Positions 5,172 to 62,400 of a DNA stretch of 64,000 bases are shown in pieces. The first letter of the stretch is position 1, and every line of letters starts with the position of its first letter. Position numbers and translations under genes: made by a program. The notes under the pieces were generated by a model, which was given only the letters and a program-made list of their open reading frames with translations, did no database searches and was not told the origin of the DNA. The DNA is taken from contig CAIIXF020000005.1 of the NCBI GenBank assembly GCA_903813345.2, positions 13,581,375 to 13,645,374 on the forward strand, written 5' to 3'. This stretch comes from Owenia fusiformis. Lineage: Eukaryota > Annelida > Polychaeta > Sabellida > Oweniidae.

Positions 5172-5176
5172 TTAAC

Positions 5177-5867: not shown

Positions 5868-5872
5868 TTAAC

Positions 5873-31080: not shown

Positions 31081-31255
31081 TGCCTCAGTCACATTTGATC
31101 TACGGCAACCGTACGGCGGCCGTAGCTTCCAAAAATTGCTTGAGAAATGGGCAGCATAAAAAGTGGATGAAACACTACGATGTGGGTTTTGTATCTCGAT
31201 TTTGAAAAGCTACGGCCTACGTACGCCCGCCGTAGAGCAATATGTGATCGAGGCT
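31081..31255. mobile_element. Harbinger-like MITE, short form (TTA TSD)
   Basis: The termini are GCCTCAGTCACATTTGATCT and, reverse-complemented, GCCTCGATCACATATTGCTC, both followed by CTACGG. TTA flanks both ends (31,078-31,080 and 31,256-31,258), the 3-bp site typical of PIF/Harbinger. Subterminal palindromic blocks repeat 'ctacggc' and 'gccgtag' motifs. No transposase is present. The 61-codon open frame here is incidental. Confidence 0.78.
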
Positions 31256-31414
31256 TTACTTTCAAAACGTCTCTATCCCTTCTAGTCCCTTTTTATATGT
31301 ATCTTTACTTTCATCTCTTCAGCCACGACTACACTATAAATGTTTGAGTGAGATTTTGACTATGGGCTGGTGAAGACTGGAACTTATGCAAGACTGGTAA
31401 AACACTAAATCACT

Positions 31415-31808
31415 CTATGCAGACTGTGCTATACCCAAACAAGCGCTGTGGATATTATGTGCGCAGGGTGCGGATATTGGCGGTCATTTTTGAAATTGAA
31501 TTCGTGAGATTTTACAAATTAAGGCTTGTTGGGTATTCAATTATATTCATACATGTGTACAATACTGCATGAAGGCTGTAAACTGTGTAGTAAAGCAGCA
31601 ATTTCATTTATTTGACTATGGAGAAAGGATGAATACTATAGACAAATTTCCCTTTTACTAGGTATCCTCTACAAATGGGTGACTATGATTGTGTATCCAA
31701 CAAGCCTTAGTGTATGAAATATCACAAATTCAAAAATGACCGTTAATATCCGCACCTTGCGCTCATGATATTCGCACCGCTCGTATTCGTATAGCACAGT
31801 CTGTATAG
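31415..31808. mobile_element. Inverted-repeat element with about 120-bp arms
   Basis: The left arm (31,415 to about 31,535) and right arm (about 31,692-31,808) are reverse complements sharing CTATRCAGACTGTGCTATAC, 'gcggatatt', 'cggtcatttttgaa' and 'aaggcttgttgg'. The interior of about 155 bp is unrelated AT-rich sequence. There is no coding capacity. It inserted in the receptor intron. Confidence 0.8.
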
Positions 31809-33725
31809 GGTGTAAATGGTGTTCTTATCTAGAGCCGCAATATAAAAACAAACACCGGTTGCATTTTTCTCGCTGAGTCAACAGTTTGATTGCCCGGTCA
31901 CTTGAGTCAAAACAAATTAAAAGATGAGGAAGATAGCTAGTAGTCGTAATAAACTACTAAATTGCGTCTGCCTTTCCGTCAAATGAAGCCTATAGGCAAT
32001 GATGGACCGATAACAATCTGACAGTTGACTCACTTCGTTAATTAAGGCGTTCGGTAATCCACTCATCCGTAGGTGAAACCCGAACAGAGATCCAAGGACT
32101 TTTACAAGTAATAAAGCACGCAATAAAATTCCTATTAATGAACTGGTCAAATTTGATGGCAATTTGCATTGATCTCCGAGCTCATCGGTATAAATAATCC
32201 ATAAAATGGAAGATTTGTAATCAAACAGCTATCAAATATAAAGACCAAACTGTAATAATGAGTCGTATAAAACTGTCAAATACTGCGACAACGAGCAAGT
32301 GATGTCGTAAATATAATCCATTTAGATCCAACTTTTGACAATGAAGGATATGTAGGGTCTAGACTTCAACATTGTAAATTCTGATATGCAATAATTAATC
32401 CATTGAGAATTACTCATTTTCCGTTTGGTGGTACAGTAATTGAATCAGACATTGAAAGAAATATTTCATATACATTCTGATATGAGTTCCTCTTTTTCAA
32501 GAGAGGAAGAGATAGTCTGAATAGTTCAACTCCAGAGATAGTTGAGGATGTGGAACCCATACAATTCTTCACTAATACTGTATTAAGCGAGTCAGCTCAT
32601 TTTTGATAATGGAAATTAGTCTAGTACAGTGTATATTTGTTCTTTACTTTGGCATCAACAAAAAAGTCCAAGAGCCTAAGCTTTCAGATGGTATATCAAT
32701 AATTAAAAATATGAAATCCAGAATAGTTAGTCCAAATTGGAAGATACAACGTTTTCAAATGGTAGGAATCGAATTTCATATAAGACACTGAGTGTTTGTG
32801 GAAACGTTTGACGGTTGGATTTTGTTGAAATGTGAAGTTCAAATATATCGATGCCGACTGTATACTTTGAACATCTTCAACATTCACTTGTATTTGCTTA
32901 AGTAGCAATTCAATTCATGAATATTCCGTCAATCAAAGATGATTGTTCAGTATGATATTTTTTGTTTGCTCTGAATTTGAGACAGTCATCATCGTAAGCA
33001 TTAAACTCTCGTAACATCTACCGGCGTCAATGAACAACTTATCTTTTAGTGTTTTCTCAACATAAGATCCCCGTCGGTTTATTGAATCAACCTATGTGTA
33101 TAACAACGCTCTATTGTCCTTCATCTTAACGTTGTCAGGCTCCAATGATCTTCAAAGGGCATAGATACTATAGGTCAAAAGAGGGGGAATTACCCAGAAT
33201 TCATAGATGGACCTCTGGGTTAATCTTTACATGAAGATAGGCTCATCTTTGAGTTCTGGATTAACTTCCTACTCTTGGTCACAGATCTTCGTAACACCCC
33301 TGACACTTGTGTCTAGTTAGAAAATCTGTTTACGTTTTTGCTTCGTATAGGAGATAAAAGATAAGATGAAGAAATTGTGGTATGTCTTAGCTTACAAATG
33401 ATGATTGTGCGTTGTTCAATAGTAATTAGTATTCTGATATACAAATTGTCTCGTTATTTAGCCCAAACAACAGAGCGAACATTAGGAAAGCTTGACCGTG
33501 ATGGCGGTTGTCTTACGTGGTAGAATTATAAATGGGGGTTCCACAAGGAAAATAGTTTCAATGACAAAGGCATATTTTGAAATGCAAAATCGAGTAGAAA
33601 TATCTAATTAGCAAGGATTATTATGTACTCACTGTGCTACGGAGATGAAAGCAGGGAATAGGGGAAATCATTATTACTACCACTAAGGTAGTAAAACTCT
33701 AATTCAATTAAGAGGGGGGTGAGCA

Positions 33726-33902
33726 CAGTAAAACCTATATCATTCCAAACACCGTTATAACCAGAATGCCTCTCAATTTGAACTTTGGTCCCATTTTTAA
33801 AATCTGCCATATACTTTAATGTTAAAAGGTCAAAATTTGAACACCTGCCAATCTGAACACTTTTGGCAGACCCAGTAGCGTTCGGACTATATAGGTTTTA
33901 CC
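33726..33902. mobile_element. pogo/Tigger-like MITE (probable)
   Basis: The left end is CAGTAAAACCTATAT and the right end is TATATAGGTTTTAC, an inverted repeat of the kind seen on pogo/Tigger-derived short elements. Inside, paired 'tctcaatttgaac' and 'aatctgaacac' motifs recur, as in that element class. The right terminal bases diverge (ACCAT instead of ACTG). Family assignment is from memory of termini only. Confidence 0.55.
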
Positions 33903-34052
33903 ATATGCAGTGTTCTTAGCTGTAACCCTAAGCTGCAAACAGTGTTAGTATGTAATATAGATATTTTGGAGCTCGAGCTTCCAACTAATTTTCGGGTGTA
34001 CGGGAGTGATGATCGTTGCTATAGAGAAAGGTTAATCAGTGAAGATACTTAC

Positions 34053-35145
34053 TCAGCGGCAATACAAAGAAAAATGGGAACCAGCACATGATGAAAACAC
34101 CAACGACAATGCCCAATGTCTTGGCTGCTTTCTTCTCTCTTTTAAACTTGGCCTCCTTGCCGGCTACAGTATTTCTGGAATAATGTTTTCTATTGGATCC
34201 CTCTGAACTGGAGCTACTGCTCTGAAATGAATGATTCTGTCTGTTGTTGTTATTCCTCTTGGCAGTGTTCGCTACTTGATACCCACCAGAGTGAATCCGT
34301 AATGTAATCTCACTGTTGAACTCTTCATTTCTCTGAGTTTTCACTCCTGTTTTAAGGAATTTTGATTGGATTAAAGCTTCTCTGTAGATTTTTAAGTACA
34401 CTGATATAATTATAAATAAAGGGATATAGAATGAGCCTGATACGGAAAATATAACGTAACCAATCTGTTTGGTAACCCCACAGTCGTAAGGGTTTTCTGG
34501 CGGGGGTTCCTTCCAACCAGCTAATGGTGCAATTGATATAACTGCCGCCAGAATCCACACCAGGACTACGATCATAAGGGCACGTTTCTCCGTTATAATA
34601 GTGGAGTGTTGGAGCGGCCTCGTGACGCCGATGTAACGGTCAATACTGATGACACATAAGGTCATAATGGACGCCGTGCAGCACATTACGTCAATAGCTG
34701 CCCAAATATCACAAAATATCCTACCAAATACCCACGCTTTAATAACTTCTAAACTAGCGGAGAACGGCAATACGGTTAATCCAAGCAACAAGTCTGCAAT
34801 TGCTAGGTTGACTATAAAATAATTAGTTGTACTCCGAAGGTGTGAATTTACGAACACTGCAAGTAATACTAAAACATTTCCCCCTACGGTCATGAGTATT
34901 AAGATACCCAGGGGCAATCCACTGCACAATGCATGTTGTAGATCCACAGTTGGGATTGTGTAAATGGTTCGATTAGTATCATTGAACGTCGTATTGCTTA
35001 CATCCAGAGTATGATTAGCACCAACATTCATAATCGAATTGCTATTTATGTCATTTTGACTGAGGACGTAGGGTTGATATCCAATATCATCCAATGTTGG
35101 ACTATGTGATGAATTCTCTGCAATATTGTGTAGAACATCTTCCAT
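34053..35145 (-). CDS. ADRA1-like: Alpha-1-adrenergic-like receptor, 5' coding exon (TM1-TM6)
   Basis: This exon encodes residues 1-364 plus one base of a rhodopsin-class amine receptor at the plasma membrane. The extracellular N-terminus (about 75 residues) has five N-glycosylation sequons (N11, N44, N51, N55, N58). TM1 has GGN (N90); TM2 has NLAIAD (D118). TM3 has the amine-binding Asp152 and DRY at 169-171; Cys145 pairs with loop Cys222. TM5 FSVSGSFYIP has Ser234 and Ser238 at the catechol-contacting positions, and TM6 has CWFPFFFVLP. The third loop (about 88 residues) has a Ser run and a basic C-terminal end. All activation and ligand motifs are intact. The start is supported by an in-frame TGA eight codons upstream. 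The donor CTGA|GTAAGT joins in frame to 21,090, giving 641 residues, longer than human ADRA1 proteins. Ligand and G-protein (Gq in the known family) are inferred from homology. Confidence 0.96.
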
Positions 35146-35175
35146 TCTGTCAAGACCTGCTTGAATCAGTCATAC
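35146..35175 (-). promoter_or_regulatory. Short 5'UTR segment after a splice acceptor
   Basis: On the minus strand 'ctctcttctacttccag' ends at 35,176, a strong pyrimidine-tract acceptor 30 bases before the receptor ATG. The implied upstream non-coding exon was not located, so promoter and transcription start are unknown and may lie beyond 36 kb. If the acceptor is not used, this stretch is simply contiguous 5'UTR. Confidence 0.65.
35150..35173 (-). promoter_or_regulatory. Seven-codon uORF just before the receptor start
   Basis: An ATG at 35,173 opens a frame of seven codons (MTDSSRS) that ends in TGA four bases before the receptor ATG, in a different frame. If the mRNA contains it, ribosomes would meet it first, so it could damp translation of the receptor. 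The effect is inferred. Confidence 0.5.
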
Positions 35176-35179
35176 CTGG

Positions 35180-35578
35180 AAGTAGAAGAGAGATACAGAG
35201 TTACGAATCACAAACTTAATCTTTATCGAAATATAGAGTTTCGAGTTTCCATATGATATGAGGGATAACATTCTCTGTCAGTTGTTAAAACGCTATCAAT
35301 TTTTGGGTTCATAAATTTGCAATTTTTGCCGCGAGTCACCAATAAACGGTCCATCAAAGTTGAACTCTTAATACGTATAATTAGAGGCCTAATTATTGTT
35401 GGGAACCGAAAAACAAGGTTATACGGTTTAATAAGTATTCAGGATCAATTGTTCATTTTATCATTATTTATGTACGTGAGAACATTACTTTAAACGTTAG
35501 TGTGTCATTTACATATTTGGGAGCTCGATACAAATGTTACTTAACGGGAGTGAATTTGCACGATATAGTATCAGTCAA
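35180..35578. other. Region upstream of the receptor exon, nothing recognised
   Basis: This is probably 5'UTR intron if the acceptor at 35,176 is used. I see no promoter motif or non-coding exon that I can support. Confidence 0.4.
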
Positions 35579-35580
35579 TA

Positions 35581-35710
35581 GGGAGTTTAAACTTGCATAT
35601 AAAATCGAAACGCCAACCTATACGTATGACCAATCGCCAATACAAATGCATTGCTTAAATATTTTCCGTTCACGTTTAGGTTGTGAAAAATATTGCAAGC
35701 TTAAACTCCC
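35581..35710. mobile_element. 130-bp MITE, copy 2 (TA-flanked)
   Basis: The intact termini are GGGAGTTTAAACTTGC and, reverse-complemented, GGGAGTTTAAGCTTGC, with TA on each side (35,579-35,580, 35,711-35,712). The same family and exact length occur at 17,707-17,836. The element is too short to encode a transposase. Confidence 0.9.
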
Positions 35711-35712
35711 TA

Positions 35713-36530
35713 TTTACTCCCCGTCGTAACGTGATATCATAACACAGTGAGGGGCTTCTCCGTATCCCTACAGATTATTTGTACGGATACGAAGAAGCTA
35801 TTCGTATATACCTAGCAGGATTTCACAATGCAGCGACTACTGGACCTTAGCCGAAGCCATGATATCATGTAATTGTGCATACATTTTGACGGGGCCTAGA
35901 TAACCATCATACTACCTTAGAACAGATTATTTAGCTGAGTAAACATTTGATCCATTCTGACTTTTTATTTTCTGAACCTGAACATGCAAACAAGGTTACG
36001 ATAACAACATAAAATACAATTGCGTTTCTTGACAAGTAAATTAAATGCGTTGATTTCTATCAACTAGTTTATGATGCAAATTCTCTAGATCTATCAGTAC
36101 TGTATATCCATTTGTAACGGAGTTGTTATTGTACCAGCCGTGTCTGAAATAAAACAGAATAAGAACAATACACCAATTGTAATTAATAAGTGATGACGGA
36201 TATAATGAATTCACCAACTTCTTGGAAGTTACTTTTGTATCAGCTTACTAATTTGATATTAACATCGTCAATTAGTTTAATATGTTACCAAATGCTTTTA
36301 TCTTAATTAGTTACTGAATCCTGCAGTTTGTCAAGAGTCTGTTTTGCAGTTTTTACAGAGTTGGAAAATATACAATTTTGAAAAAGTTAGGAGCAACCTA
36401 TTTGTTATACAATACGTGTATATTTTCTCATTAGAAAATGGTAAAATTCAAGTATTTGGGAGTAATGATTAGTTCATGAAATAATTATATGAACAAAAAT
36501 GCATTTCCATCGTATGGTCTAATCGTCTTT
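35713..36530. other. Intergenic DNA, nothing recognised
   Basis: AT-rich sequence. A small inverted pair 'ggggcttctccgtatc' and 'ggatacgaagaagc' near 35,752-35,795 could form a hairpin. No gene is seen. Confidence 0.4.
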
Positions 36531-36533
36531 TCC

Positions 36534-36622
36534 CTTAACTTTGCATGCGCATTAGTTCGAATTCGCTTCTTAAAAGAGTGCTTCATCTAGTTAATAACTA
36601 TAGACTCTGTGCGCAGGGTAAT
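36534..36622 (-). repeat. Dispersed repeat R1, copy 1
   Basis: This about 89-bp stretch is the reverse complement of 62,316-62,400. Shared blocks are TACCCTGCGCRCAGAGTCTA, CTCTTTTAAGAAG and TTGCA with flanks. It lies 138 bp from the Harbinger-like element at 36,760. The other copy abuts the element at 61,624, in the same relative orientation. Confidence 0.7.
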
Positions 36623-36759
36623 TGTTTTTGGAGTTCGAATGTTTCACATTCAACTAATATATCTAATGTTTCAAGCAATAGTGGAAACGCATTCATTAAA
36701 GCTGAGTAAACCTTCAATTTCCAAGTTTTAAAAACGAGGTGTCTTATAGTGTTTGCTAA

Positions 36760-37522
36760 AGCCTTAGTCGCATTTGCTCTACGGTTGCCGTACGACAGAA
36801 AATCTACATAGTACTGCTTATCCCTGTATTTGATGCTGCATGTTTCTCTCGATTTTGGGAACCTTCGGCCGCCGTAAGGTTTGTTACGCGGAATATGGCA
36901 TACATTCATGGTTGCGCGGTATTTGTGATACGGGTGAATATGCCAAACTCACCTGCGGTATATGGCATATTCCGCAGGTGAGTATGCGATCTTCTGCAGT
37001 GAATATGCGATACATTGATTTCAGTGAATACCCGATACTCACCTGCAGAATATGTCATACTCACTTGCGGAATATGCCATATACAACAGATGAATATGAC
37101 ATTTTCCGCAGGTAAAACGTGATACAGAAAGACTTGGTTTGATTGGTTGCGAGAATCGATTCTAAATGTAAAACTACGCTGGATTACCAATATTGTTAGT
37201 GCGTCGAGTACTAAGATATGAATCCTGGATTGATTGGGTAAGTTTATTACGTGAGATTGGTGAGTGATACTTCTGCATACGTTGATATATTCAATAAACT
37301 GTACTGTTGATTCAGTAATCATTATAATAATTCATAAAGTTTTACTTGACAATTGCGTACTTCCGTACCACGTTCTCATTGGATAGTGTGTATGCCATAT
37401 ACCGCAGGTGAATCTGTCATACACCGCAAGTGAATATGCCATATTCGTTGCGGAATATGGCATATTTTTGTATCGTGTTTGCCGCGTAACAAGGTTGCCG
37501 TAGATCAAATATGACCGAGGCA
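36760..37522. mobile_element. Harbinger-like element, long form with iterated motifs
   Basis: The termini are GCCTTAGTCGCATTTGCTCT and, reverse-complemented, GCCTCGGTCATATTTGATCT, both followed by CTACGG, so it is the same family as 31,081-31,255. The flanks are TAA and TTA. Both subterminal regions carry 'gttacgcggaatatggcat'. Motifs of the type 'tcacctgcggaatatgycat' are scattered in both orientations at 36,930-37,120 and 37,385-37,470. No transposase is seen. The open frames in it (36,598-36,909, 36,840-37,115, 36,906-37,322) come from this repetition. Confidence 0.75.
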
Positions 37523-37887
37523 TTAGCTAGTGATATATTCCGTATTTTCAATGTAAAAGTTAATAAAAAATATTATCCGAGTATGTGTTATTTTAACATA
37601 ATAGAACAAATCTTTTTGATTTTGAAATATCCATGTATGTTGGAAAATAATACCCATTTCATTTATTATTGGAAATTCTAACCATAAGTACGGATCTCCC
37701 TTTATAACGTAAATCACAACTATGCTGTTTCTTTCTACAAATAAATTAATTGAACATATTTTCTCAAATGGATTTATGATGCAAATCCTCCCAGCCATTC
37801 GTAACGGAGTTATTGTATAAGTCATGCTCGAAATTAAATCAAAATAAGCGGATACAGTTTATATATTCAAAACAAAAATTCTGAAAA

Positions 37888-38032
37888 CATCCTTATCAAA
37901 GTAAACGGAGTGCATGTCTTCATTTGCTAAAAACTCATTAATTAATTAGGTGGTGGATTTAAATCCGAGATTTAATTAATTAATGAGTTTTGAGTGAAGG
38001 AAGACATGGGCTATGTTTACTTGATAAAAATG
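37888..38032. mobile_element. Hairpin MITE with about 61-bp arms
   Basis: The left arm (37,888-37,948) and right arm (37,972-38,032) are reverse complements with few mismatches, ending CATCCTTATCAAAGTAAAC and CATTTTTATCAAGTAAAC and meeting at an 'attaattaatt' core. The whole element folds into one hairpin. No target-site duplication could be fixed because the flanks are T-rich. Confidence 0.78.
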
Positions 38033-38039
38033 TTTTTTT

Positions 38040-39995
38040 TTCACTAAAAAGTTACTTTCATATTAACTTACCAATTTGATTTTTTGTTGTTTATTAGCCT
38101 TCTGTTTTTATCCCAATTACTTTATGATTGCAACTCTCTAGTGTCTGCTTTTCACTTTCTAATTCTAGTATAGTCTAACTGTCGATTGCCAGATTCTCGA
38201 AATGTTAAACTTGTTACTATGTAAAGCAAGTCTAGATCTGCGTATTGGTAAAACGTGCTGGTCCCAGGAGCACTTATTGCTTGAATAAAACCGAGTCTAG
38301 CGTGCCCTTCTTAATGTACATTAAGTTCCCATTGAAGATACGGAATATCACTTAACATCAACAATGATAATGACTCTTACTTACTCTTACTTGTATCGAA
38401 TTATATCTAGTAGTTAACAATGACTCTAAGTATTGTTACATCTGTCATGTTTGCAGACATATCACGCTGGTACTTATCGATGCATTTTCTTTAAGCATTT
38501 AGAAGGATTCCATTAGCATTTCGACGTTTGCATAAGAGTTACGTTGACTTGATTATGATTGATCACAATTAATAAAGTACATCCGAGATGACGTCGCATG
38601 GCTGGCGTTCTTTCAATAGGTAACAGACGCAAATAAAGTCCAAGCTCATTAGAAATCGAAATAACAATTCATCTTGTGTTGTATTGTATTCAACTGCCAG
38701 TCAACCTCATAAATTAATCATTCCACCAAAAGTTTTCTACTGAGATAAGTCTTGCATATTTGTCGTTATAATCATGAAACGAAATTTTGATGATTTCTCA
38801 ACAGTGTGAAAATAAGACTCGTTTAAATGGGTGGATTTAAGCGCGCGGCTTTAAGAGCTTGAAATATACAAAAAGACAGAAATCAATATAGCAAAACCAT
38901 TTAGATGATAAAGTGTAAACATGTCCGATTGTAAACAATAAATGCATGATGTTTCCCGATTATACATGCTATATGTGCTATTGCTTCATTAATTCGTTAC
39001 CAACTCCCCTCGCAAACCAATGTTTGTCCTCGAACTCTCACTCAAATCTTGAATCACCCACGTAAATCTCCTCCATATCGAAAGTTGCGAATATTGAAAT
39101 GACGCTCTTATATCAGTAAATGATGTTTTATTCCCGACGCTTATTGAAGATAAAGCGGAGACTGACATAACCATGACAAATAAGATTGAAGGGGTTTATG
39201 ATGAGTAAAAGGAAGCACTGCATGTTTTATTAGACCATTGTTAAGATTTATTATTATAATGCTATCCATGCCTATGATATTACAGTCTACTACAAGACAT
39301 TAACTTTCTCACCGGAGCACATATGCAAATTTACATTGTGGTAATAATAGCGCCTTCGGTTTGAAATCAACCCTATTTCCGTCTGATATGTAATCTAACT
39401 TTTAAGGCTAGCTGAAAGAACAGTATGTGTTTTGTATTTTCATACTTTGAGGGTCAATATGAATCGTTGTAATCGGATTTGTTATTATTACCATAAGTAA
39501 ACTAGCATCAGAGTTCTTATATCCAATAGAGCGTTGGATTAATACCTTAGCGTCCAGAGAGAAGCTACTTCATCACGAGTGATGTACTTTTGAAGATGGT
39601 TTGAGTAACTCTGCACTCGACAAGAAAATTAAGATCAATAACTTACGACCCAAAAATAGATGTACAACCAAGTTTACATTACGAATAAATATGTGTAGAA
39701 TCAATTGACATAGTTCCTGAAATGTTAAACATACCATCAAAATGCCATAACCGATACATTTATAACAGAGGTTTAACAAGTGTTTGTATCTAAACGGAAG
39801 TAGTTGAAAGTTCGACATCTGATTTGATTCGTCTTCTCCAATCGTAGTTTCTTGGATCATTTTGATAAAAGCAATCAAAGTATATCAAGAAAATGAAATT
39901 CCGCCCATACATGATATTTTATTGAGTGGACGTTCACGAGTACAAACAGATAAGCGTGTGGGTGAAGTTTTTGACTGGCGTAGGTGGCCTAAGGA
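38040..39995. other. AT-rich intergenic DNA
   Basis: Short minus frames at 38,989-39,174 and 39,573-39,878 show no domain. Nothing else is supported. Confidence 0.45.
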
Positions 39996-40004
39996 TGCAT
40001 TGGA

Positions 40005-40212
40005 CAGGCCCGTAGCCAGGGGGGGTTCGCAGGGTTCGGGCGAACCCCCCCCCCCTGGCCAAAAATTCTTTTAAAATCATGCAGTTTTTCACCATTTTGA
40101 GCACTTTTCAAGTGATTTTAGCCATATTTAGGCCAAAATTGTCAAATGTGAACCCCCCCTGGAAATTTTTGAAAATTGAACCCCCCCTTGGCAAATCCTG
40201 GCTACGGGCCTG
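40005..40212. mobile_element. CAG-terminal MITE family B (5-bp TSD)
   Basis: The perfect terminal inverted repeats CAGGCCCGTAGCCAGG and CCTGGCTACGGGCCTG are flanked by TTGGA on both sides (40,000-40,004 and 40,213-40,217). The interior holds 'gaaccccccc' runs in both orientations. It is non-autonomous. The 5-bp site and CAG ends match family A at 18,503 and 41,425. Confidence 0.9.
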
Positions 40213-40217
40213 TTGGA

Positions 40218-41419: not shown

Positions 41420-41424
41420 TATCC

Positions 41425-50170: not shown

Positions 50171-50260
50171 TCAATAGATTTGAAACTGATACTATTATGA
50201 ATATCATGATACATCTTAGAACCAAGCGGGACGATGTACCTTTCTCGCAAGAGGGCAATT

Positions 50261-50569: not shown

Positions 50570-51323
50570 TGGTTAACTAAATCCCCGAAATGGATGCTTC
50601 AATGCAAACTTACTTATGTGGATAGGTTGATTGGTGGATGGGTGCATGAATGGATGCATGAGATTGATACATCACAACACGATAGTACAAGATGAATAAA
50701 AAGGATTAATTACTTGAAATGTTACAACTCTCTGCCACAATCTATTATTTGTGACTCTACAAAATATTTATCTGCATATTTAATATTTACCTGCCACATG
50801 ACATGACATGTCAGTTGACATGATACCAATTTATACTTAATACAACATAGTCATATTAATCATTGACATTGATGTCATCTTCAGCATTACAATAATGACA
50901 TACTTGCCACTTAAATACCATAATTCTAATTAACGTAACTCAATTAGATTCTACCTGTGTTTTCAAATCATGCTGGATCCCATGACAACGAATTAAAAAT
51001 TAAAGAAATGATATTTGTGACGAGCAAATATCTAGCATTTTATTAAATAATTTTCTTTTCTGAATTGAAAGTTATTAGAATATAAGCAAACTTATAAGAT
51101 TGAGTGACGTGAATGAAACGTATGTTTCAACAAGTGATCAATGTCACAATGCATACACACTGTCAATGAGTGTGTCAGCAGGTGATTAATAATTATTCAG
51201 AAATATCAAACTATTAAATGGCATGATGACGTGAGGAAATTACTCTGAGCTCAAAAGTACATTCACGTTCCTGCTCACTGTTGGTACCTCACCAGCGAAC
51301 TGACAAGCAACGCTTTATCTAAT

Positions 51324-51638
51324 GGTACGTTCACACCAACGGCGCTTTGATGGCGCTTTAAAGCGGCTTGTAAAGCGGCAACAAAGCGTAACAAAGCTTA
51401 ATTAAAGCGTCGGGGTCGTAATAGGTCGTAGAAAAGCTCGGGAGTAATGCGGGATATTCGGCAAGAGCGCTAAAAAATTTAAAAAAAATTTAATCAAACT
51501 TTGTTACGCTTTGGTGCCGCTTTACAAGCCGCTTTAAAGCGCCATCAAAGCGACGTTGGTATGAAGAAAAATGACAAAAATGACGGCGCTTTGCTCGCCG
51601 ATTTAAAGCGTGGCATTCGCCGTTGGTGTGAACGTACC
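51324..51638. mobile_element. MITE with nested palindromes of GCTTTAAAGC
   Basis: The perfect terminal inverted repeats GGTACGTTCACACCAACGGC are at both ends. Inside, a second inverted pair (about 51,341-51,396 and 51,500-51,560) is built from 'ggcgctttaaagcggc', 'acaagccgctttaaagcgcc' and 'aacaaagcgtaacaaag'. The adjacent 10-bp flanks match at 8 of 10 positions (tttatctaat and tttatcagat), a possible old target-site duplication. No protein is encoded. Confidence 0.82.
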
Positions 51639-53620
51639 TTTATCAGATAAAATTGACCAACCTGTTGCCAAGCTCACTGTCAGTTGTGTCAAGTTGTGTG
51701 GAGCAAGAATAATTTCCACGACTATCAAGACACACTGGACTCGTTTATCCCAATGCAATAGGAGATTTTCAAAAGATTCGAGTATGACTATCTCCTGACA
51801 AGACTTGAAATAAAGATGAATGGGATGATACTTTTTGAATTAAGCTTTCCAATACACCAGTGCGACTGCTCTGCTTTATATCCTGAAAAAGATCCTTATC
51901 TCGTAGAGAACCAATGAGTTTTTGCTAGATATATCGTTATTTCTATCTAGATATATGGCTACCCGTAAGTAGATATATGATTTTACGATCCCACAGTGGT
52001 ACAATGTTCACTAGTTTGGAATTTAATTTCGTCAGACTCTTGGCCACTGGCAATCGTCCATCAATCAAAACACTCTTCCTCACTTTCAAAGCTCGTTCTT
52101 CATTTGGAAATATGCTAAATCGCAATAAAATTTTGTGATAAACAAACTCATGCCTTAATAACATTCTGTCCGTAGTATCACACAGAGCGTTCTCAAATGT
52201 GGGATAAACGAGAAATATGTTCAGGAGATAGTGATGATGGGAAGATCCATCATAGTCCGACCCCTATTAATCTAGAGTAAAGCTTCAAATTGAGTACCAT
52301 GATTTTATCAATTAACAGCACGTGAAATTAATCTTTGAGTTCGATAAATTGGAATAGGGAGGCGGATTGGGGCAACCTCGGGAAAGCACTCGATAATATA
52401 ATCGTATATTTGTCAAAACACTCTATCAGTAAAGTCAAATGCTACGCATATACCTATACTGAATATTCATTCATCTAGTAGCGTACCAAAGACAAGAGTG
52501 TTTACATTTGTCAAAGCTATCTTAATCTCTGCTGTCATAATAAAACATAGAAAGCTGAGAATGGAGAATGGAAAGTACATACATCCCCGTTTACCTTTAA
52601 TCTTAAGATCCGATTCTACCACGTATGTTGCTAGCTCTTATTAACTTACTGATGATGACCGTTCGAAATTATTTAACTTAGATTATTACGTGCTAGTGAG
52701 TCATTTTTCTAATACGCTTTGACTTTGCTCTTCATTTTGTTTGTAGGTAAAAGCATTATAAAATGGTAAATGCATCCCCGTTGAATCGTAGCCTTTGAAA
52801 GAATTGCAATCAAAGTGGCAAAGGTCAACATGACAATTTTATAGAAAGGAAATATTTCCAAGAATTAGTTTTTGTATACGGTGTTAATGTTTTATTTCCA
52901 TGAAATGGTCATTATAGGATGATTGATCTATCAGCCTTAATGAACAGCATTAATCATCTTGATGAGTTAAATGTAAATATTATGTTCATATTCAATATGT
53001 CTGTTTGTTAGGACAGCGGCGATTGTTCAGACCTGTAGAAGGGATAATTGGACTGAAATGATTCCATTGATAAGCTTCAGTTTAACGGAAGTAATCATTG
53101 CAAACATGTGTATCTGTTTGGATTTGCCATCTCTTAACGCATTCTGGCGGACACCGGGAAGGATATTTTTGGCTGTTACTCTCATTATCTATTGAAAACG
53201 ACTATTCCTTTGAGGTTTTCAGTCGCTCACAATGAACAAAATGTGATATCCTTGAACTTCATTCAAGTCGAATTGATCTCGTTTCCTTTCTGAGATGCAG
53301 GATCTAATTTACTTGACCTGATTTAAATACAGGCTTATTACCCCTTCTAATATTTGACTTTGAGTGTATTACCGTTGATGGCAATCCAAATTATGTTTAA
53401 AGCATGAAGAAAAAGTTCTTTGGAAAATCAATCGTGGTATCCATCATGATTGGATAAGATTGATTGCCTCCTTTACTCGCTACAATACGATATAGTTATG
53501 TCATTTTCTTATAGGAATCTTGTTGGGAACGTTTATCCTACTTATTTCATATGCATACATGCATATCCTAAAACCCGTGATTTGATTTGAAACTACTGTC
53601 GATAATTGTATGGTTTTAAT

Positions 53621-54566
53621 GCTCACAATGTATCATATTTACATAGCCGTACGTGCGTGGTGGTTGTTCAATTTCACAATGTATCATATTTATAGTACTA
53701 GTACATATCCGTACTAGTTTGGTTGTTCAATGTTCACAATATATCGTATTTACATAGCCGCAAGTGTTTGGTGGTTGTTCAATATATCGTATTTATATAG
53801 CCGTGCGTGGTGCTTGTTCAATTTCACAATGTATCATATTTATACAGACCCGTACGTGTTGGTTGTTCAATGTTCACAATATTTCGTATTTACAGAGCCG
53901 CACGTGATTGGTCGTTCAATGTTCACAATGTATCATTATTTATAGTACTACAACATATCCGTACTAGTTTGGTTGTTCAATGTTCACAATATATCGTATT
54001 TACATAGCCGTACGTGTGTGGTGGTTGTTCAATTTCACAATGTATCATATTTATAGCACTACATATCCGTACTTGTTTGGTTGTTCAATGTTCACAATAT
54101 ATCGTATTTATATACATAGCCGCACGTGTTTGGTGGTTGCTCAATATATCATATTTACATAGCCGTACGTGTGTGGTGGTTGGTCAATTTCACAGTGTAT
54201 CATATTTATACACACCCGTACGTGTTGGTTGTCCAATGTTCACAATATATCGTATTTACATAGCCGCACGTGATTGGTCGTTCAATGTTCACAATGTATC
54301 ATATTTATACTACTAGTACATATCCGTACTAGTTTGGTTGTCCAATGTTCACAATATATCGTATTTACATAGCCGCACGTGATTGGTCGTTCAATGTTCA
54401 CAATGTATCATATTTATCGTACTAGTACATATCCGTACTAGTTTGGTTGTCCAATGTTCACAATATATCGTATTTACATAGCCGCATGTGTTTGGTGGTT
54501 GTTCAATATATCATATTTACAAAGCCTTATGTGTGTGGTGTTTGTTCAATTTCACAATATATCATA
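53621..54566. repeat. 52-bp satellite array, segment 1
   Basis: The repeated unit contains 'ttgttcaatgttcacaatgt', 'atcatatttacatagccgta' and 'cgtgtgtggtgg'. In this segment, units reading 'atatcgtatttacatagccg' alternate with 'gtatcatatttatagtacta'. Open frames in all three plus frames (for example 53,730-54,316) are repeat translations and are not genes. Confidence 0.93.
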
Positions 54567-55652
54567 CGAGGGGTGATCAATAAGTAATGGACGCTTTTTT
54601 ACACAGATGCTTTTTATAGACCAATCCCTTCGATTTTCTTCGCAGTGATACATCATTCAATTATCTATCAACTCTGAAGATTTGAAGACAAAATATATAA
54701 AACATGTTAATATATCCTTATTTCCGTGAAGGAGGTACAGGTACCCCGGGACCGACATTTACGTCACATATTCTGAAGCTGTTTTAGCTTGTTTAACATG
54801 CAATGCAGTTGAATGCAGGCTGAACAAAACAAACCATTATGGTCATGAATTACCCCATTTTGTTTTGCCATAGTTGATTTAGATTATTTTATCATCACTA
54901 TGTGGTATTCATGCCACATTCATTCCACAGGGCCCTCTAAATAGGTTCCATCAACTGCTACATGTACACAATTCCTCATCCTCTCAACTCAAGATTGTGA
55001 GACAAGGCTGAATCCATTCTCTGACATGGTAGCAAGACGCAGTTGCACGGGTTGTTTTATTTCATCAATGTCAATAAACCTGCGTCCTTTCTCTATAGAA
55101 ATAAGTAGTATAGAAATAAACAAGTCACATGTGAGCAGATCTGGACAATATGGTACGTCGGCCAAGGGCTCAATTTTGAGGCCCAGGGATATTGTTTTCT
55201 GAACATTTTGAGATCTGTGGGCAGGTGCATTGTTCATATGGAGTAGGGTGTTCCCTTCTCTCACCACCCCTTTCTTCCACAATTCTTTCTCAAATTGACC
55301 TGCAAACCCCTTCCATACAACACTCTGACATCACAATACTTTCTGTTTATGTGTTACCAGTCAGCAAGAAATTTCAAACAACACAACACTTGTTGCAAAT
55401 AAAAAGTTCAAATCTAACCGAAATTTACCAAACTGGCTAAAAACTGAATATGTGACGTAAATGTCGGTCCCGGGGTACCTGTACCTCCTTCACGGAAATA
55501 AGGATATGTCAATATGTATTATATGTTTTGTCTTCAAATCTTCAGAATTGATAGATAATTGAATGATGTATCACTGGTAGAAAAATCAAAGGGATTGGTC
55601 TATAAAAGGTATCTGTGTAAAAAAGCGTCCATTACTTATTGATCACCCCTCG
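54567..55652. mobile_element. Mariner-type element 1, long inverted repeats
   Basis: It is bounded by TA duplications (54,565-54,566 and 55,653-55,654). The ends are CGAGGGGTGATCAATAAGTA, extended into inverted repeats of about 207 bp that reach 'gacgtaaatgtcggtcccgg'. It inserted into the 52-bp satellite. It contains a minus-strand transposase fragment but is too short (1,086 bp, over a third of it inverted repeat) to encode a complete enzyme. Confidence 0.92.
54989..55282 (-). pseudogene. Mariner transposase fragment 1
   Basis: About 97 codons match the second half of a mariner-type DDD transposase: LLHMNNAPAHRS (normally H-D/MD-NAPAH), PYCPDLLTCD (the YSPDLxPCD motif) and GRRFIDIDEI. Full-length enzymes have about 340 residues, and the N-terminal helix-turn-helix domains are absent. 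The catalytic Asp of the NAPAH motif reads Asn here, so even the retained part would be inactive. Upstream codons continue in another frame. Confidence 0.85.
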
Positions 55653-55654
55653 TA

Positions 55655-56335
55655 TTTATACACACCCGTACGTGTTGGTTGTTCAATGTTCACAATATAT
55701 CGTATTTACAGCCGCACGTGATTGGTCGTTCAATGTTCACAATGTATCATATTTACATACCCGTGCGTGTGTGGTAGTTGTTAAATTTTCACAATGTACC
55801 CGTACGTGTGTGGTGGTTGTTCAATGTTCACAATGTGTCATATTCACATACCCGTACGTGTTATGTGGTTGTTTGATTTTCACAATGTGTCATATTTACA
55901 TACCCGTATGAGTTATGTGGTTGTTCAATGTTCACAATGTGTCATATTTACATACCTGTACGTGTGTGGTGGTTGTTCAATGTTCACATTGTATCATATT
56001 TACATACCCGTACGTGTAGGGTGGTTGTTCAATGTTCACAATGTGTCATATTTACATACCTGTACGTGTGTGGTTGTTGTTCAATGTTCACATTGTATCA
56101 TATTTACATACCCGTACGTGTTGGGTGGTTGTTCAATGTTCACAATGTATCATATTTACATAACCATACGTGTGTTATGTCATTTTCTTATAGGATCTAT
56201 GTTCAATGTTCACAATTTATCACATCCAAACAGCCATACGTGTGTGGTGGTTGTTACATGTATCATATTTACATACCCGTACGTCTGCTGTGGTGGCTGT
56301 TAATGTTCACAGTATATCATATTTACATAGCCATA
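55655..56335. repeat. 52-bp satellite array, segment 2
   Basis: Period 52 bp is directly countable: 'ttcacaatg' or 'ttcacattg' recurs at 55,827, 55,879, 55,931 and 55,983. A stray 'gttatgtcattttcttatag' inside the array (about 56,176) also occurs at 53,495 in the flank, so flanking sequence was captured into the array. Long open frames here (55,639-56,356) are artefacts. Confidence 0.93.
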
Positions 56336-57328
56336 CGAGGGGTGATCAATAAGTAATGGACGCTTTTTTACACAGATGCTTTTTATAGACCAATCCCTTC
56401 GATTTTCTTACCAGTGATACATCATTCAATTATCTATCAACTCTGAAGATTTGAAGACAATATATACATTACATGTTGATATATCCTTATTTCCGTGAAG
56501 GAGGTACAGGTACCCCGGGACCAACATTTACGTCACATATTCTGAAGCTATTTTAGATTGTTTAACGCAATGCAGTTGAATGCAGGCTGAACAAAACAAA
56601 CCATTATGGTCATGAATTACCCCATTTTGTTATGCCATAGTTGATTTTGAATATTTTATCATCACTATGTGCTATTCATGCCACATTCATTCCTCAGGGC
56701 CCTCTAAATAGGTTCCATCAAGTGCTACATGTACACAATTCCTCATCCTCTTAACTCAAGATTGTAAGACAAGGCTGAATCCATTCTCTGACATGGTAGC
56801 AAGATGCAGTTGCACGGGTTGTTTTATTTCATCAATGTCAATAAACCTGCGTCCTTTTTCTACAGAAATAAGTAGTATAGAAATAAACAAGTCACATGTG
56901 AGCAGATCTGGACAATATGGTGCATTGGCCAAGGGCTATATTTTGAGGTCCAGGGATATTGTTTTCTGAACATTTTGAGATCTGTGGGCAGGTGCATTGT
57001 CCATATGGAGTAGGTTGTTCCCTTCTATCACCACCCCTTTCTTCCACAATGCTTTCTCAAATTGACCTGCAAACCCCTTCCATACATCACTTCCAACACA
57101 ACACTTGTTGTATATAAAACTGAATATGTGACATAAATGTCGGTCCCGGGGTACCTGTACCTCCTTCACAGAAATAAGGATATATCAATATGTATTATAT
57201 ATTTTATCTTCAAATCTTCAGAATTGATAGATAATTGAATGATGTATCACAGGTAGGAAAATCAAAGGGATTGGTCTATAAAAAGTATCTGTCTGAAAAA
57301 GCGTCCATTACTTATTGATCACCCCTCG
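56336..57328. mobile_element. Mariner-type element 2, long inverted repeats
   Basis: It has the same family and termini as element 1, with TA duplications (56,334-56,335, 57,329-57,330). At 993 bp it is missing about 90 bp of internal sequence compared with element 1. It also lies inside the 52-bp satellite. Flanking satellite bases differ between the two copies, which favours two insertions over a copy of the whole block. Confidence 0.92.
56936..57169 (-). pseudogene. Mariner transposase fragment 2
   Basis: About 77 codons contain VWKGFAGQFEKALWKKG and LLHMDNAPAHRSQNVQ, the central catalytic block. The Asp of the MDNAPAH motif is retained, unlike in fragment 1, but the frame breaks soon after (LDLKI then stop) before the third catalytic Asp region. 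It is a non-functional remnant. Confidence 0.85.
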
Positions 57329-57330
57329 TA

Positions 57331-57530
57331 TGTGTGTGGTTGTTCAAGGTTCATAATTTATCACATCCACATAGCCGTACGTGTGTGGTTGTTCAATGTT
57401 TACATGTATCATATTTACATAGTCGTACGTGTGTAGTTGTTAAATGTTCACGATGTATCATATTTACATTGCTGTACTTGTGTGGTTGTTCAATGTTCAC
57501 AAATCACAATGTATCACATTCATCATATCT
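57331..57530. repeat. 52-bp satellite array, segment 3
   Basis: The last, more diverged units ('ttgttcaatgtttacatgta', 'catagtcgtacgtgtgtag') fade into unique DNA. Overlapping open frames are repeat translations. Confidence 0.85.
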
Positions 57531-58655
57531 AATGAATATTACAGCAGTCGCTGCCAAATTATCTTGGAAATATTGGGAGTCATTGGATTAAGCAAGACAT
57601 ATTTGCCCATACGATACCCTTGTGTCTGTCAGCCTTCAAAAACGTCGTAATCAACCAAGAAAAAGCAAAGTAAATGAACTCATGCCATAATAAAAGTTAT
57701 AAAGATCGTTGCATTTTTGTGGCCTCGTCTATATTCAGGATATTAAACTGCATTATTAGCTCATAAAACCATGTTTATCAATATTATTTCATTTTCTTCA
57801 TTTTCCCTTCTGAAAAATGCCTCAGATGATTTGACAAGTATTATTTTTACTTTCTCCCGAAAAAAACATTGTGAAAATGAGCTCGGTGTCAAGTACAATT
57901 CATAATTTTAAGTGAAAGATGTTTTGCCTCTTTATAAGTTCATTTTACAACATCTTGGTTTTCAGTTTACGTTTGTCAATAGTAAACGTAACGTCATTTA
58001 TTGCAAAATTATACCTAGCTACTGAGAAGTCCTCACAACGCATGTCAATATGTATACATTAAATCGTAAAACAAAATCCTGATACAAGAACCCGTCTTAC
58101 TTTCAAGATACGCACTTCTTCCATCGATCAATGAATTAAGATTAACTTAGCCTTGGGAATTATTGCAAATTGATTTTAATTTTAGGTATCTCTCAGGTTC
58201 CTATGACCTTCAACGGCAATGGTTTATTAAAATATAAGTAAGATTCCCTTCTGACACGTCCGTTAATCATGTTTTGTCTTCGTCTTCTCAATCAGCTAGT
58301 AAATCAGAACTAATAGCATTCATCCAAAAATGATGCTATTATACTTTGTTCGAAAGGAGGTGTTCCAGTATTGTAAACGATTTCGAATAGTCATTAGGAA
58401 CCAAGGTCAGCACGACTTTCAGTATTATATTTTAATTATTGCCCTTTATGTACAAATATGCGTATACACTGAATGTTGTTTCAACTCACATGGGGAAATG
58501 TATATTACAAATATCCGTTAATTGACGAAATTGAGGCTAAAACTGAAAACTTGTAACATCACATAGATGCAAGATGGTATGCTTTTAGCTGTTTTAACGT
58601 AGCAAGGTTGCTGATCTTTACCATTGGATGATTAAAGTAATCTTATTAAAAAAAA

Positions 58656-58961
58656 TTAGAGCACTTTTGGATCGCCCCTCGTATATCGGTTGCCAATATT
58701 TGGCCATATGGATACTAGCCTAGTATTCTCCTGATGACCATTCGGAGATATTTTTGGGATAATTGCGTCGGCTTTTACTGATAAATTAGTGTATGTAGCT
58801 TGATGGATCAAGATTGCATCGGCTTTGCTGATGGATGTTGACCCTTTGATCCGCTTATGGACTGGATTATGTCCACCCCGCATCATTTGAGACTTGTATG
58901 AATCTACAGCTATTTTTGATGTCCAAGGATTGGTTATCAATTTAAATTTACACTTCAACAT
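58656..58961 (-). other. Unrecognised open frame with internal repeat
   Basis: This 101-codon frame has a short internal repeat (KADAILI and KADAIIP). The plus strand at 58,670 reads 'gatcgcccctcgta', close to the mariner terminus found at 55,652 and 57,328, so this may be the edge of a third, decayed element. No protein family is recognised. Confidence 0.25.
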
Positions 58962-60042
58962 GTATTGTAATAATACTTCAGTGTCCTTGGTTTCGGATTG
59001 TGGTAATGGTGCTTGTGGTAATATAATGGTTGAAGTGGGATAAAGACACTGTTTCTTTTCACGTTAAATCATGGTTTGTGTGTCGGGGATTGTTTTCCTC
59101 TTGACTGGTGTATATTTAGAAGTTGTCTTTTCTTCTTGCTATATTCTGTAACACGTTGGGGCCCTGTAATACGTTTGCACCCATATTTACAAATCTGTTC
59201 GAAAAATGTCTCAACGAAAACCGTTCAGAAACGCAATTTGCCCGGATTTCTGTATTATTCATTATCTTTTTGCATTGATGCTTTACATGTAAGGTTCTTA
59301 CATATAGTCGATTATATGAAATAGTTCATCACTGTTTTACCAATTGAACACTCTGTCTACAAAAAAAACGCATGACGATTCTATCAGAGAGATGGTTATT
59401 CCAAAAATAACGGGTAAATTTTCTTTTGTGACCTTGCATAAAAGAAGATCCATTGAAAGAGTGAGTTTGCCACATCCCGGTGATTGATTCGAAACTAACC
59501 TACCTTTTAACGACTTGAGAAATATATCATCTTTACAAGCGAGAAATAACAGTTGATATTGAAATTTTTATTGCAATTACTTAACGGGCTGCAGTAAAGC
59601 ATTTAATAGTAGCTTTAATTGCACAGGTAAAGTGCTATTTCGTTTGAGAAACATAAGATTAATGGTCTTGTTTGACCATTGTATCCTTATCCCCAACAAT
59701 GTATAATTGTTTTTGCTTCCTGAACTCGTAAATTAATTAATTAGTTACATCAGTAATGTTATCGATTCAATTATTCCCACGATATCTTCAAATTGGACAA
59801 AGTTCTTTTAATATGAATCACCGTGTCTTTTAACTAGTTCTACCTTTTCGAATAATATTACAGTTTTTATGATGGTAAGCATTTGTGATCCAATTTGAAG
59901 TACCTCTCATGGCCTAATTGTGTGAACCTGAACTAAATGCCACGTATTGTTAAGCAGCTGATCACATCGAAGTGAATACTACCCTAAACCCTTTCTGTCA
60001 TGAGTGGTCCATGATTTTCAACTGCACATTTTGATTTTCAAG

Positions 60043-60249
60043 GCGGAATCAACGGAATATTTCTCACTCAGAAAGTGCAGACGATGCTCTCTTGGATGCG
60101 CTGTCAAACACATGGAAAGGGTAACAATGACACCATGTCATGGACCAACTTCTCAGAAAGAATATGTTCCAGAAGGGCGCATTTTTATCCAATCTCAATG
60201 TATTGAATGCAGCAACGTAATCGACGCATGGAGTCAATTGTGTTATTAA
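60043..60249 (+). CDS. Candidate cysteine-rich exon (TNF-receptor-like spacing?)
   Basis: After a plausible acceptor (cacattttgattttcaag, ending 60,042) an open frame of 68 codons has CRRCSLGC, TPCHGP and CIECSNVIDAWSQLC. The C-x2-C spacing followed later by C-x2-C and a further Cys recalls TNF-receptor-type repeats, but pairing is incomplete. The frame ends in TAA just after the last Cys, without an obvious donor. It could be a terminal or decayed exon, or chance. No partner exons were found. Confidence 0.22.
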   Translation, partial: AESTEYFSLRKCRRCSLGCAVKHMERVTMTPCHGPTSQKEYVPEGRIFIQSQCIECSNVIDAWSQLCY

Positions 60250-61620
60250 CGTTACTGAATCTTGCTTACACTTCCATCATAAACAAGATACTAAATAACA
60301 AAGCCTCAAAGGTTTCAATCAAAAGATTATGCATATATAAAACGGGGTGATACAGGATCATGATAATAACCTAATTGCCAGTCTTATATCTTCTCTTTAC
60401 CTATCATTTTCACACAGTAATAAAACAAAGGATAAAGATCCAGGGATTTCTTTTATCTAGCAAAGCACCGTTCACTTACTTCCACACGTGACACAAGAAT
60501 GATTGGCTCCCAGAATGCAATCTCGATATTTTCCAACAATGAAAATCTCGTTATTGTCTAACAGTAACTGGCTATAAAATCAGCCAGCTATTCTTGATCA
60601 CTTCTTGTGTGTTTTGAATTTTCTTTATTGTGTAATAAGACAAAAGCTTGTGATTCAAAATCTGAAGTGAAAACGGCGATTCTTAATTTTGAATTTCGTA
60701 ATCGCGACATCTTTCAAGATCGAGTTTGTCTAATACTCGGAGCTCGGTAATTATGTACCGAGCGAAACGAAAGAATACCGAGATTACATTATTGGTGCCG
60801 AGACTCCTATTTATGACATATATATTGCCTTCTGAAATCAGAATTTAACCGTATTTAGATGGATTTGTTTTCTCTGCACTCATGATCATGATGATCTCAT
60901 ATATCAATCATGTCCATAACTCTTTATTACATCATTACACCCAGCCGATTATTTGCCAGTGGGGGATAGAGACTCGCAGTTAATATAACCTAAGTATTCA
61001 ACCGACGTGTCATCGAGTGAAATACAATTCTTTGCAAGTACTTGTGCGGTCTTTTGGGTCACCCACATATATTCGACTGTATAGTATTTGACACATAATC
61101 TCGAAATACTTGGGTCAATTCAGAATAGTCGGACACAAGTCAAAACACTTTGACAGCAAAGAACGATTGGGCTTCCACAAACATAATTTTATTCCGGAGA
61201 TCCGATTTGACAATATAGTTGAGCAAACGAGGGTTTAAAGAATGAAGCTATTTATCCCAGGGTTTTGATATACCATTAGAAATGGAAACGTGCTGTTACA
61301 AAATTGACCAATAAGTGCTTTCTTGAATGTTTTCTAAACACAAAAATGTCGACGGGAAAGATATTTGAATTTCTTTGGAAGAGCTTGAAAATATTATTCA
61401 AGAAGACTGTTGACCCCTAACTTGTGATGGACGACATCGAGCTGTTTTTCATCAAATTAACCCCCTTGTGATGACATGGTTAATAAGACAACGTTGTTAC
61501 AAGTGAACCTTCGTATGCACGCCGGATCCTTTAAGCTGTCATTCTCACCCTTTAAATGAGTGCTTTTAGGACAAATTGTGTCATTTATTTTTCATTGAGG
61601 ATTGGACTTTGAAGCTCCTG
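60250..61620. other. Intergenic DNA, nothing recognised
   Basis: A small inverted group of 'ctcggtaatta' and 'taccgag' motifs lies at 60,737-60,805. Otherwise no gene or element is seen. Confidence 0.4.
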
Positions 61621-61623
61621 TTA

Positions 61624-62307
61624 TGGCCTAGTCACATAGCCCGGCCGATGTCCGGCATCGGTAGAGCTCGGTGGATTTTTTTGGTGCCACCGAGCTCTCC
61701 TCATCGGAAGCAGAGCTCGGTGACATGAACGGACTCCGTCTGGACATCTTCAGGCGACCGACCGAACACCGGCCGGTGACCATACGGAGTCTGTCTCAAA
61801 ATGGTAGTTTTTTTCTGCCGATGTGGCAGCAACTACCGGCCGGAGGTCGGCCGGACATCGGAAGGAATACGGCCGGTACCCGAGCAGGTAACAGGACACC
61901 GTGCGATCGCCGGCCGGGTTGTTAACGGGCTTTGAACAGTGACCGGCCGATGCTCTGTCCCACATCGGCCGGAGCTCGGTCGGAGCTCGGCCGCTGTCCG
62001 TTAAAAAACCTCGTCCTCTGGTTGTCTCAGATGCACGGAACACCGGCCGATACTCGGCCGTGCACCGGCCGACGTATTTTCCGATGTGGTTACGATGGGG
62101 CTGCTATGACATGATGAGGGAGCTCGGTGAGAGCCCGGTGAAATTTAACTCCGAAGTTAAAATTTCACCGAGCTACCACCGATGCGGTTTTAAGCAACAA
62201 ACGCCACGGATGTCCGGCCGGTGTCCGGCCGGTGTTCGGCCGATTTCGGTGAAAATTGCATCGCTGGCTCATCGTAACCTCATCGGCCGGGCTATGTGAC
62301 TAGGCCA
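61624..62307. mobile_element. GC-rich Harbinger-like element built from iterated motifs
   Basis: The perfect 27-bp terminal inverted repeats begin TGGCCTAGTCACATAGCC. TTA flanks both ends (61,621-61,623 and 62,308-62,310), the PIF/Harbinger signature. The interior is much richer in G and C than the surroundings and is made largely of 'ccggccgatg', 'caccggccg' and 'gagctcggtg' motifs in both orientations. Two larger inverted blocks with 'accgagct' are seen near each end. No transposase is encoded. The open frames (61,671-62,299, both strands) are motif by-products. Confidence 0.88.
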
Positions 62308-62315: not shown

Positions 62316-62400
62316 TACCCTGCGCGCAGAGTCTAGTTATAAACTATTGAAGACGAAGCTCTCTTTTAAGAAGTTAAGTCGAACGAATGCAAAAGTTAAG
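62316..62400 (+). repeat. Dispersed repeat R1, copy 2
   Basis: Reverse-complement partner of 36,534-36,622, sharing TACCCTGCGCGCAGAGTCTA and the CTCTTTTAAGAAG block. It starts eight bases beyond the Harbinger-like element. Confidence 0.7.

Follow-up and report, generated by a model that had tools for sequence, protein, structure and literature searches.

The 64,000 nucleotides of the annelid Owenia fusiformis considered here (GenBank assembly GCA_903813345.2, contig CAIIXF020000005.1, forward-strand positions 13,581,375 to 13,645,374; "the window", to which all statements about elements refer) contain three short elements, E1, E2 and E3. They are best read as non-autonomous elements resembling MITEs (miniature inverted-repeat transposable elements), with related ends and phased motifs that are putative binding sites, E2 having received a second transposon near its right end; we put the probability of this reading at about 0.7. 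A first-pass annotation had proposed something less commonplace: a shared terminal core enclosing three unrelated arrays, each grown from its own element's subterminal sequence. What one has instead belongs to an ordinary class of element, to which are added a single nested insertion and a single regularity. The features referred to throughout are these (TIR, terminal inverted repeat):

31081-31255, plus strand: E1, a 175-bp TIR element between TTA (31078-31080) and TTA (31256-31258), recognized by sequence, inverted arms and DNA fold
31100-31125, plus strand: left subterminal block of E1, CTACGGCAACCGTACGGCGGCCGTAG, with two 11-bp CGGC units
31210-31235, plus strand: right subterminal block of E1, 81% identical to the left block
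36760-37522, minus strand: E2, an E1-family shell with a nested element, flanked by TAA and TTA, recognized by blastn and by collinear alignment to the E1 reverse complement
36878-36880, no strand assigned: GGT, left duplication copy of the nested element
36881-37492, no strand assigned: nested transposon, 612 bp, TIR TTGTTACGCGG/CCGCGTAACAA, with a 22-bp TGCGGAATATG-type array in both orientations
37493-37495, no strand assigned: GGT, right duplication copy of the nested element
61624-62307, plus strand: E3, a 684-bp TIR element with TTA on both sides and a perfect 27-bp TIR containing the iterated CCGGCCGATG

Three elements and an insertion within one of them

E1, E2 and E3 lie where the first-pass annotation had placed them, with inverted ends and with flanks of TTA/TTA (E1 and E3) or TAA/TTA (E2, which therefore lacks an exact target duplication). 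All three are short, apparently non-coding TIR transposons, and they have traits of a MITE (shortness, no evident coding sequence, TIR plus duplication): lengths of 175-763 bp and duplications that are present at E1 and E3 and inexact at E2. The terminal cores are TGCCTCAGTCACAT and AGCCTCGATCACAT in E1, AGCCTTAGTCGCAT and TGCCTCGGTCATAT in E2, and TGGCCTAGTCACAT, identical at both ends, in E3; the first bases of the ends are TGCCT, AGCCT and TGGCC, respectively. The arms of E1 are imperfect and under 70 bp long (76% over 68, flanks included). E3 has a G+C content of 58.5%; that of the window is 36%, with a CpG ratio of 0.91. Folded as single-stranded DNA and compared with shuffles, E1 has a z of -7.8 (200 shuffles), E3 of -22.8 (20 shuffles) and the nested element of -10.7 (20 shuffles), folds far stronger than those of the shuffles, as with any array of motifs in two orientations.

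By their sequences, E1 and the shell of E2 clearly belong to one family. With E1 reversed, BLAST aligns 31077-31110 with 37526-37493 (91% over 34 bases) and, collinearly with this end match, the interior segment 31107-31190 with 36881-36799 (75% over 87, E 4.5e-5). Why, then, does E2 look different? Near its right end it has taken up a second TIR transposon, which brought along a 22-bp motif array. When E2 is globally aligned with reversed E1, a single long gap opens close to that end: at the insertion point E1, reverse-complemented, has GCCGCCGTACGGTTGCCGTAG, and E2 has GCCGCCGTAAGGT, followed by the 612-bp insert and then by GGTTGCCGTAG. The insert starts TTGTTACGCGG and ends CCGCGTAACAA, a perfect 11-bp inverted repeat, and its duplication is the 3-bp GGT/GGT, not TWA (W being A or T). 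Taking away the insert and one GGT leaves, by subtraction, about 148 bp, a length like that of E1. All nine sites of the TGCGGAATATG array (at most 2 mismatches, both orientations) fall within the 612 bp, and the array was therefore not grown from E1/E2 subterminal sequence; its motif resembles subterminal sequence of the nested element itself (GCGGAATATG after TTGTTAC). What had been taken for E2's own interior is, as its sequence reads, a separate TIR transposon nested in an E1-like shell, and its private TIR and GGT duplication bring it close to the case, an interior inserted later, that the first-pass annotation had itself set against its proposal.

Ends and interior motifs

The common terminal core claimed for all three elements holds strongly for E1 and E2, by virtue of the 34 bp at 91% and the collinear interior, and moderately for E3. 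A matrix built from the four E1/E2 ends was scored at sites following TTA or TAA (6,750 TWA-anchored sites): both ends of E3 reach 11.8 bits, and the next-best anchored site, the four E1/E2 ends apart, reaches 9.35. A degenerate core, allowed at most 1 mismatch, has six matches in the whole window, namely both ends of E1, of E2 and of E3. By its terminal sequence E3 is thus probably related to E1 and E2, and the link is modest, because its anchored rank is the best outside E1/E2 but four unrelated sites of 127,966 exceed it, at 12.9-13.4 bits, once the TWA anchor is dropped. Might E3 be unrelated, its ends alike by chance or through weak end preferences common to TTA-targeting elements? Those four sites without TWA flanks say so, as does the agreement of the E1-left and E3 cores at just 11/14 bases, the whole link consisting of 14 terminal bases plus TTA; the anchored ranking of the E3 ends above all but the four E1/E2 ends, a TTA duplication as in E1, and a CGGC-type unit at 11-bp spacing in both E1 and E3 say otherwise, and we hold an unrelated E3 to be unlikely. 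Clear copies of one family in the window are limited to E1 and the E2 shell.

(A note on the surroundings of these ends: 36549-36620 and 62316-62390 form a mutually inverted repeat at 80.5% identity, with the end CTCTG(T/C)GCGCAGGGTA; the second copy begins 6 bases beyond the right-hand TTA of E3 and the first stops 140 bases before E2. Pattern scans of viral contigs with end pieces gave zero matches for E3 and for the nested element; one 17-base match to an E1 end, at locus L001, was judged to be chance.)

E1 is made of two 26-bp quasi-palindromic blocks flanking a non-iterated core, and for that reason its interior is not an array. The blocks carry CGGC units at 11-bp steps, CGGCAACCGT and CGGCGGCCGT; E3 iterates CGGCCG(A/G)TGT, likewise at 11-bp steps. 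The sequences are suggestive of a relation between the two sets of motifs through a CGGC-centred 11-bp unit. E1-derived CGGCNNNCGT, allowing at most 1 mismatch, occurs 14 times in E3 against 4.1 times in shuffles (0 of 400 reach 14), a count that is inflated by E3's own repetition; its single exact match is equalled by 76 of 400 shuffles. Two longer E1-derived words, ACGGCNNNCGT at one mismatch and TACGGCNNNCG at two, occur in E3 3 and 18 times (reached by 44 and 4 of 400 shuffles, respectively). The looser unit CGGCNNNNGT is found 5 times in E1, 9 times in E3, twice in the E2 shell and 24 times in the whole window, counts that are post hoc because the form of the unit was chosen after viewing both E1 and E3.

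Are these, then, the three unrelated interiors of one Harbinger-derived family, each member having grown an array from its own subterminal sequence? With E2's array assigned to the nested element, and with the motifs of E1 and E3 not clearly unrelated, the first part of the proposal falls. Growth from subterminal sequence is compatible with E3, whose CCGGCCGATG lies in the TIR and recurs inside; it is thin for E1, in which both blocks contain the subterminal CTACGGC and no array extends beyond them; it fails for E2, whose array is delimited, within the E1-like shell, by a separate TIR and GGT duplication. The CGGC-centred 11-bp unit common to E1 and E3 also stands against it, and we consider such a family highly improbable. 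Nor does a general mode of growth emerge: the apparent pattern is mostly ordinary, one of the interiors being a nested transposon.

The 11/22-bp register and its spacers

The regularity concerns spacing. Identical 4-mers (with at least 3 different letters) were counted at each lag from 6 to 40 in ten BLAST inverted repeats within 1 kb, the tandem region at 53.6-57.5 kb being left out. In five of the ten the top lag is 11 or 22, each time with a z of at least 6: E1 (11, z 8.3), the nested element (22, z 10.6, run on 36881-37491), E3 (11, z 16.3), the palindrome at 31411-31812 (22, z 6.0) and the element at 51323-51641 (11, z 10.6). The claim of motif arrays in both orientations accordingly survives for E3 and for what lies inside E2, and lapses for E1 with its two blocks. 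The top lags of the remaining five are 37 (5172-5871, with 22 second at z 6.5), 39, 14, 8 and 7. Among 108 control windows of 500 bp, lag 11 or 22 comes out on top in 7, none of them at z 5, and 11 reach z 5 at other lags; the Fisher p for elements against controls is 0.0009 at any strength and 0.0025 among strong cases, figures to be read with two provisos, the mutual dependence of an element's two arms and the weaker single-arm result.

(A descriptive note on the other repeats: the inverted-repeat element at 51323-51641 has ends GGTACGTTCACACCAACGGCG, flanks TTTATCTAAT and TTTATCAGAT that agree at 8/10 bases, and AAAGCG(G)C motifs that occur in either orientation, 11 +/- 1 bp apart; nearby, at 51901-52000 and outside the studied inverted repeats, a TAGATATATG-like motif occurs three times at 22-bp steps. 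The inverted-repeat element at 5177-5867 has TTAAC on both sides and GACCGGTRCGGGT twice per arm, 22 bp apart, and again, in varied form, within its internal 37-bp tandem repeat. Adjoining E1, 31397-31820 is a long imperfect palindrome; each of its arms has two occurrences of a GCGGATATT-type motif at a distance of 22 bp, and this motif is somewhat like GCGGAATATG of the nested element.)

Plain slippage followed by even drift should leave the spacers between motifs about as alike as those of other tandem arrays, which in six other arrays of the window have identities of 0.54-0.96. Spacer identity is near chance (0.25-0.27) in E1 (2/7), E3 (5/17), 51323-51641 (5/18) and 31397-31820 (11/57), few spacer bases being countable in the first three. 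E3, E1 and the two further elements have the look of motifs kept at a set distance, and the nested element resembles a tandem array that has diverged; the lack of spacer conservation in the former four therefore favors phased protein-binding sites. The competing explanation traces the arrays to replication slippage and template switching, which would have left ordinary tandem repeats and quasi-palindromes devoid of binding function. It draws on the spacers of the 22-bp array in the nested element, conserved (63/96) in the manner of a plain tandem array, on short near-perfect 11-bp runs in E3 (e.g., 62211-62242), and on the single-strand folds of E1, E3 and the nested element, which would favor template switching; it has to contend with motifs that recur between near-chance spacers in E3, E1 and the two further elements (few bases counted) and with an 11/22-bp register common to elements that have different motifs (subject to the single-arm reservations that follow). 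We think it somewhat unlikely. A broader proposition, that unrelated TIR families have converged on the same design, each with its own motif in both orientations at 11 or 22 bp with free spacers, so that a phased face of putative sites results, is quite doubtful.

Several results weigh against phased, related elements, in addition to the nested element's spacers and the reservations about the ends of E3. 1) When half-elements are compared one at a time with a model of trinucleotides fitted to the same piece, using words of 4 and 5, the register is clear only in the right half of E3 (0/100 at both word lengths) and in the left array of the nested element (0.01 and 0.00). For the right array of the nested element the values are 0.03 and 0.24, and for 51323-51641 they are 0.26 and 0.05 on the left and 0.28 and 0.31 on the right; E1 and 31397-31820 are not significant in this test, and neither is the left half of E3, in which lag 21 comes first and 11 second. 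2) With lags extended to 150, E3, the nested element and 31411-31812 do not single out the multiples of 11: the last does not keep them, and the first two show other classes equally strong. The register is for this reason to be called local. 3) In the left part of the shell of E2, lag 25 ranks first and 11 third, and among the best 45 windows of a sliding scan lag 22 leads at 51901 and at 62351, outside the studied inverted-repeat elements. 4) Spacer identity in 5172-5871 is intermediate (18/36), and the signal of 31397-31820 is in effect one motif pair mirrored across both arms. 5) Within the window E3 and the nested element each occur in a single copy, and an empty site for E3, sought by way of the repeat at 62316-62390 (which matches 36549-36620 reversed), was not obtained, because that repeat starts beyond the insertion point. 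6) In a Pfam scan of 15 open reading frames (ORFs) of the window, only the ORF at 34036-35169 passes the curated cut-offs, and no transposase family is listed.

Known transposon systems, coding context and possible mobilization

Motif arrays are already in print for a PIF/Harbinger family, in Medicago truncatula (PMC2213677). The Medicago element MtPH-A6-4 is like those of the window in its arrays, and nested insertions are also found there; it differs in having 60-bp units with a triplicated 12-bp motif, against an 11-bp register here, in its plant host with known transposase ORFs, and in having been sought by G(N)5GTT, a TIR signature of plant PIF-like elements (PMC2213677) that none of the six ends here carries. 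By eye, G(N)5GTT occurs in 0/6 ends, G(N)5GTC in 5/6 and G(N)5ATC in 1/6; the signature is not known to hold in animals. The TTA/TAA duplication, another trait of PIF/Harbinger, is exact in E1 and E3, inexact in E2 (TAA/TTA) and replaced by GGT/GGT in the nested element. On sequence, PIF/Harbinger membership of E1-E3 is unproven, and we do not file them there: TTA fits E1 and E3, the plant signature does not appear, and the Pfam scan of 15 ORFs lists no transposase family.

CACTA/EnSpm TIRs start with CACTA or, alternatively, CACTG. The TIRs of E1, E2, E3 and the nested element (TTGTTACGCGG) differ in starting with neither, no TNPA/TNPD-like gene is seen in the window, and the host is an animal. 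Subterminal motifs in both orientations, a CACTA-type trait, are found in E3 and the nested element, E1 having two blocks only. There is nevertheless a likeness to CACTA elements (En/Spm, Tgm) in the 3-bp duplication, in short conserved TIRs, and in direct and inverted subterminal motifs that diverge between families as the ends stay alike (PMC2613891). Muta1 and related mosquito Mutator-like elements share short subterminal tandem repeats in the TIRs and non-autonomous derivatives with variable interiors, but they make duplications of 8-9 bp, and the 12-bp units of Muta1 with their 3-4 bp spacers amount to a register of ~15-16 bp (PMC5225508). In Galileo, repeated TIR sites are bound by the DNA-binding domain of the transposase and are proposed to confer binding specificity; it belongs, however, to the P-element superfamily, has TIRs of up to 1.2 kb, and has its sites at intervals that range from over a hundred bp to hundreds of bp (PMC3688188). 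TIRs of hundreds of bp, the Foldback/Galileo trait, do not occur here (E3, 27 bp; nested element, 11 bp; E1 arms, under 70 bp). Coral MITEs present the reverse case, conserved interiors with different TIRs (PMC2872659), and in Arabidopsis short interrupted repeats have been linked to MITEs (PMC10342631). Among the titles found on same-face helical spacing of sites, none speaks of an 11-bp register, a statement that reaches no further than those titles.

The coding context is soon told. The minus-strand ORF at 34036-35169 encodes a rhodopsin-type G-protein-coupled receptor (Pfam 7tm_1, E 1.4e-64, plus three related seven-transmembrane families), and 20258-21163 is likely the last exon going with the receptor (7tm_1, E 4e-4, under the Pfam curated cut-off). 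Together with the undepleted CpG, these receptor sequences would by themselves suggest an animal host, probably an invertebrate. E1, which was outside the Pfam scan, has no ORF of 90 amino acids. The region 53607-57523 consists of arrays of ~49-52 bp units, 210-bp inverted repeats and a 1.5-kb block duplicated at 83%; the minus-strand ORF at 54989-55330, which looks mariner-like, gave no Pfam match. A purine-rich 32-bp array occupies 27371-28247, with strong GC skew (+0.37 over 26001-28000), and AACGCATTGTA occurs five times (at most 1 mismatch) in a single orientation at 9400-9570, at spacings of 49, 40, 49 and 22 bp.

How might such elements move? E1, the E2 shell and E3 would be non-autonomous cut-and-paste DNA transposons whose short ends are related and whose target duplications are of the TTA type. 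The five ORFs that overlap E2 and E3 have zero Pfam matches above cut-off, which points to movement in trans, most likely with a transposase encoded elsewhere in the genome. By analogy, the subterminal motifs most likely bind that transposase or an accessory DNA-binding protein: a Myb-like protein recognizes a 9-bp subterminal motif of Harbinger3_DR (PMC9710019), TNPA binds the subterminal repeats of CACTA elements (PMC2613891), and a THAP domain binds the repeated sites in the TIR of Galileo (PMC3688188). Repeated in either orientation about once per helical turn (11 bp), the sites would, by B-DNA geometry, lie on about one face of the helix. Extra sites may increase an element's share of captured transposase, and the arrays may have grown by selection for more of them.

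"Same ends, three unrelated interiors" is a misleading pattern, for which one transposon nested in another is largely responsible. A regularity is left that can be tested: the motif arrays of several transposon families follow a local 11/22-bp register and have free spacers, which would bear on transposase recruitment and on competition among non-autonomous elements. Were the doubtful convergence of unrelated families also real, non-autonomous copies would compete for a common transposase or accessory protein by adding sites.

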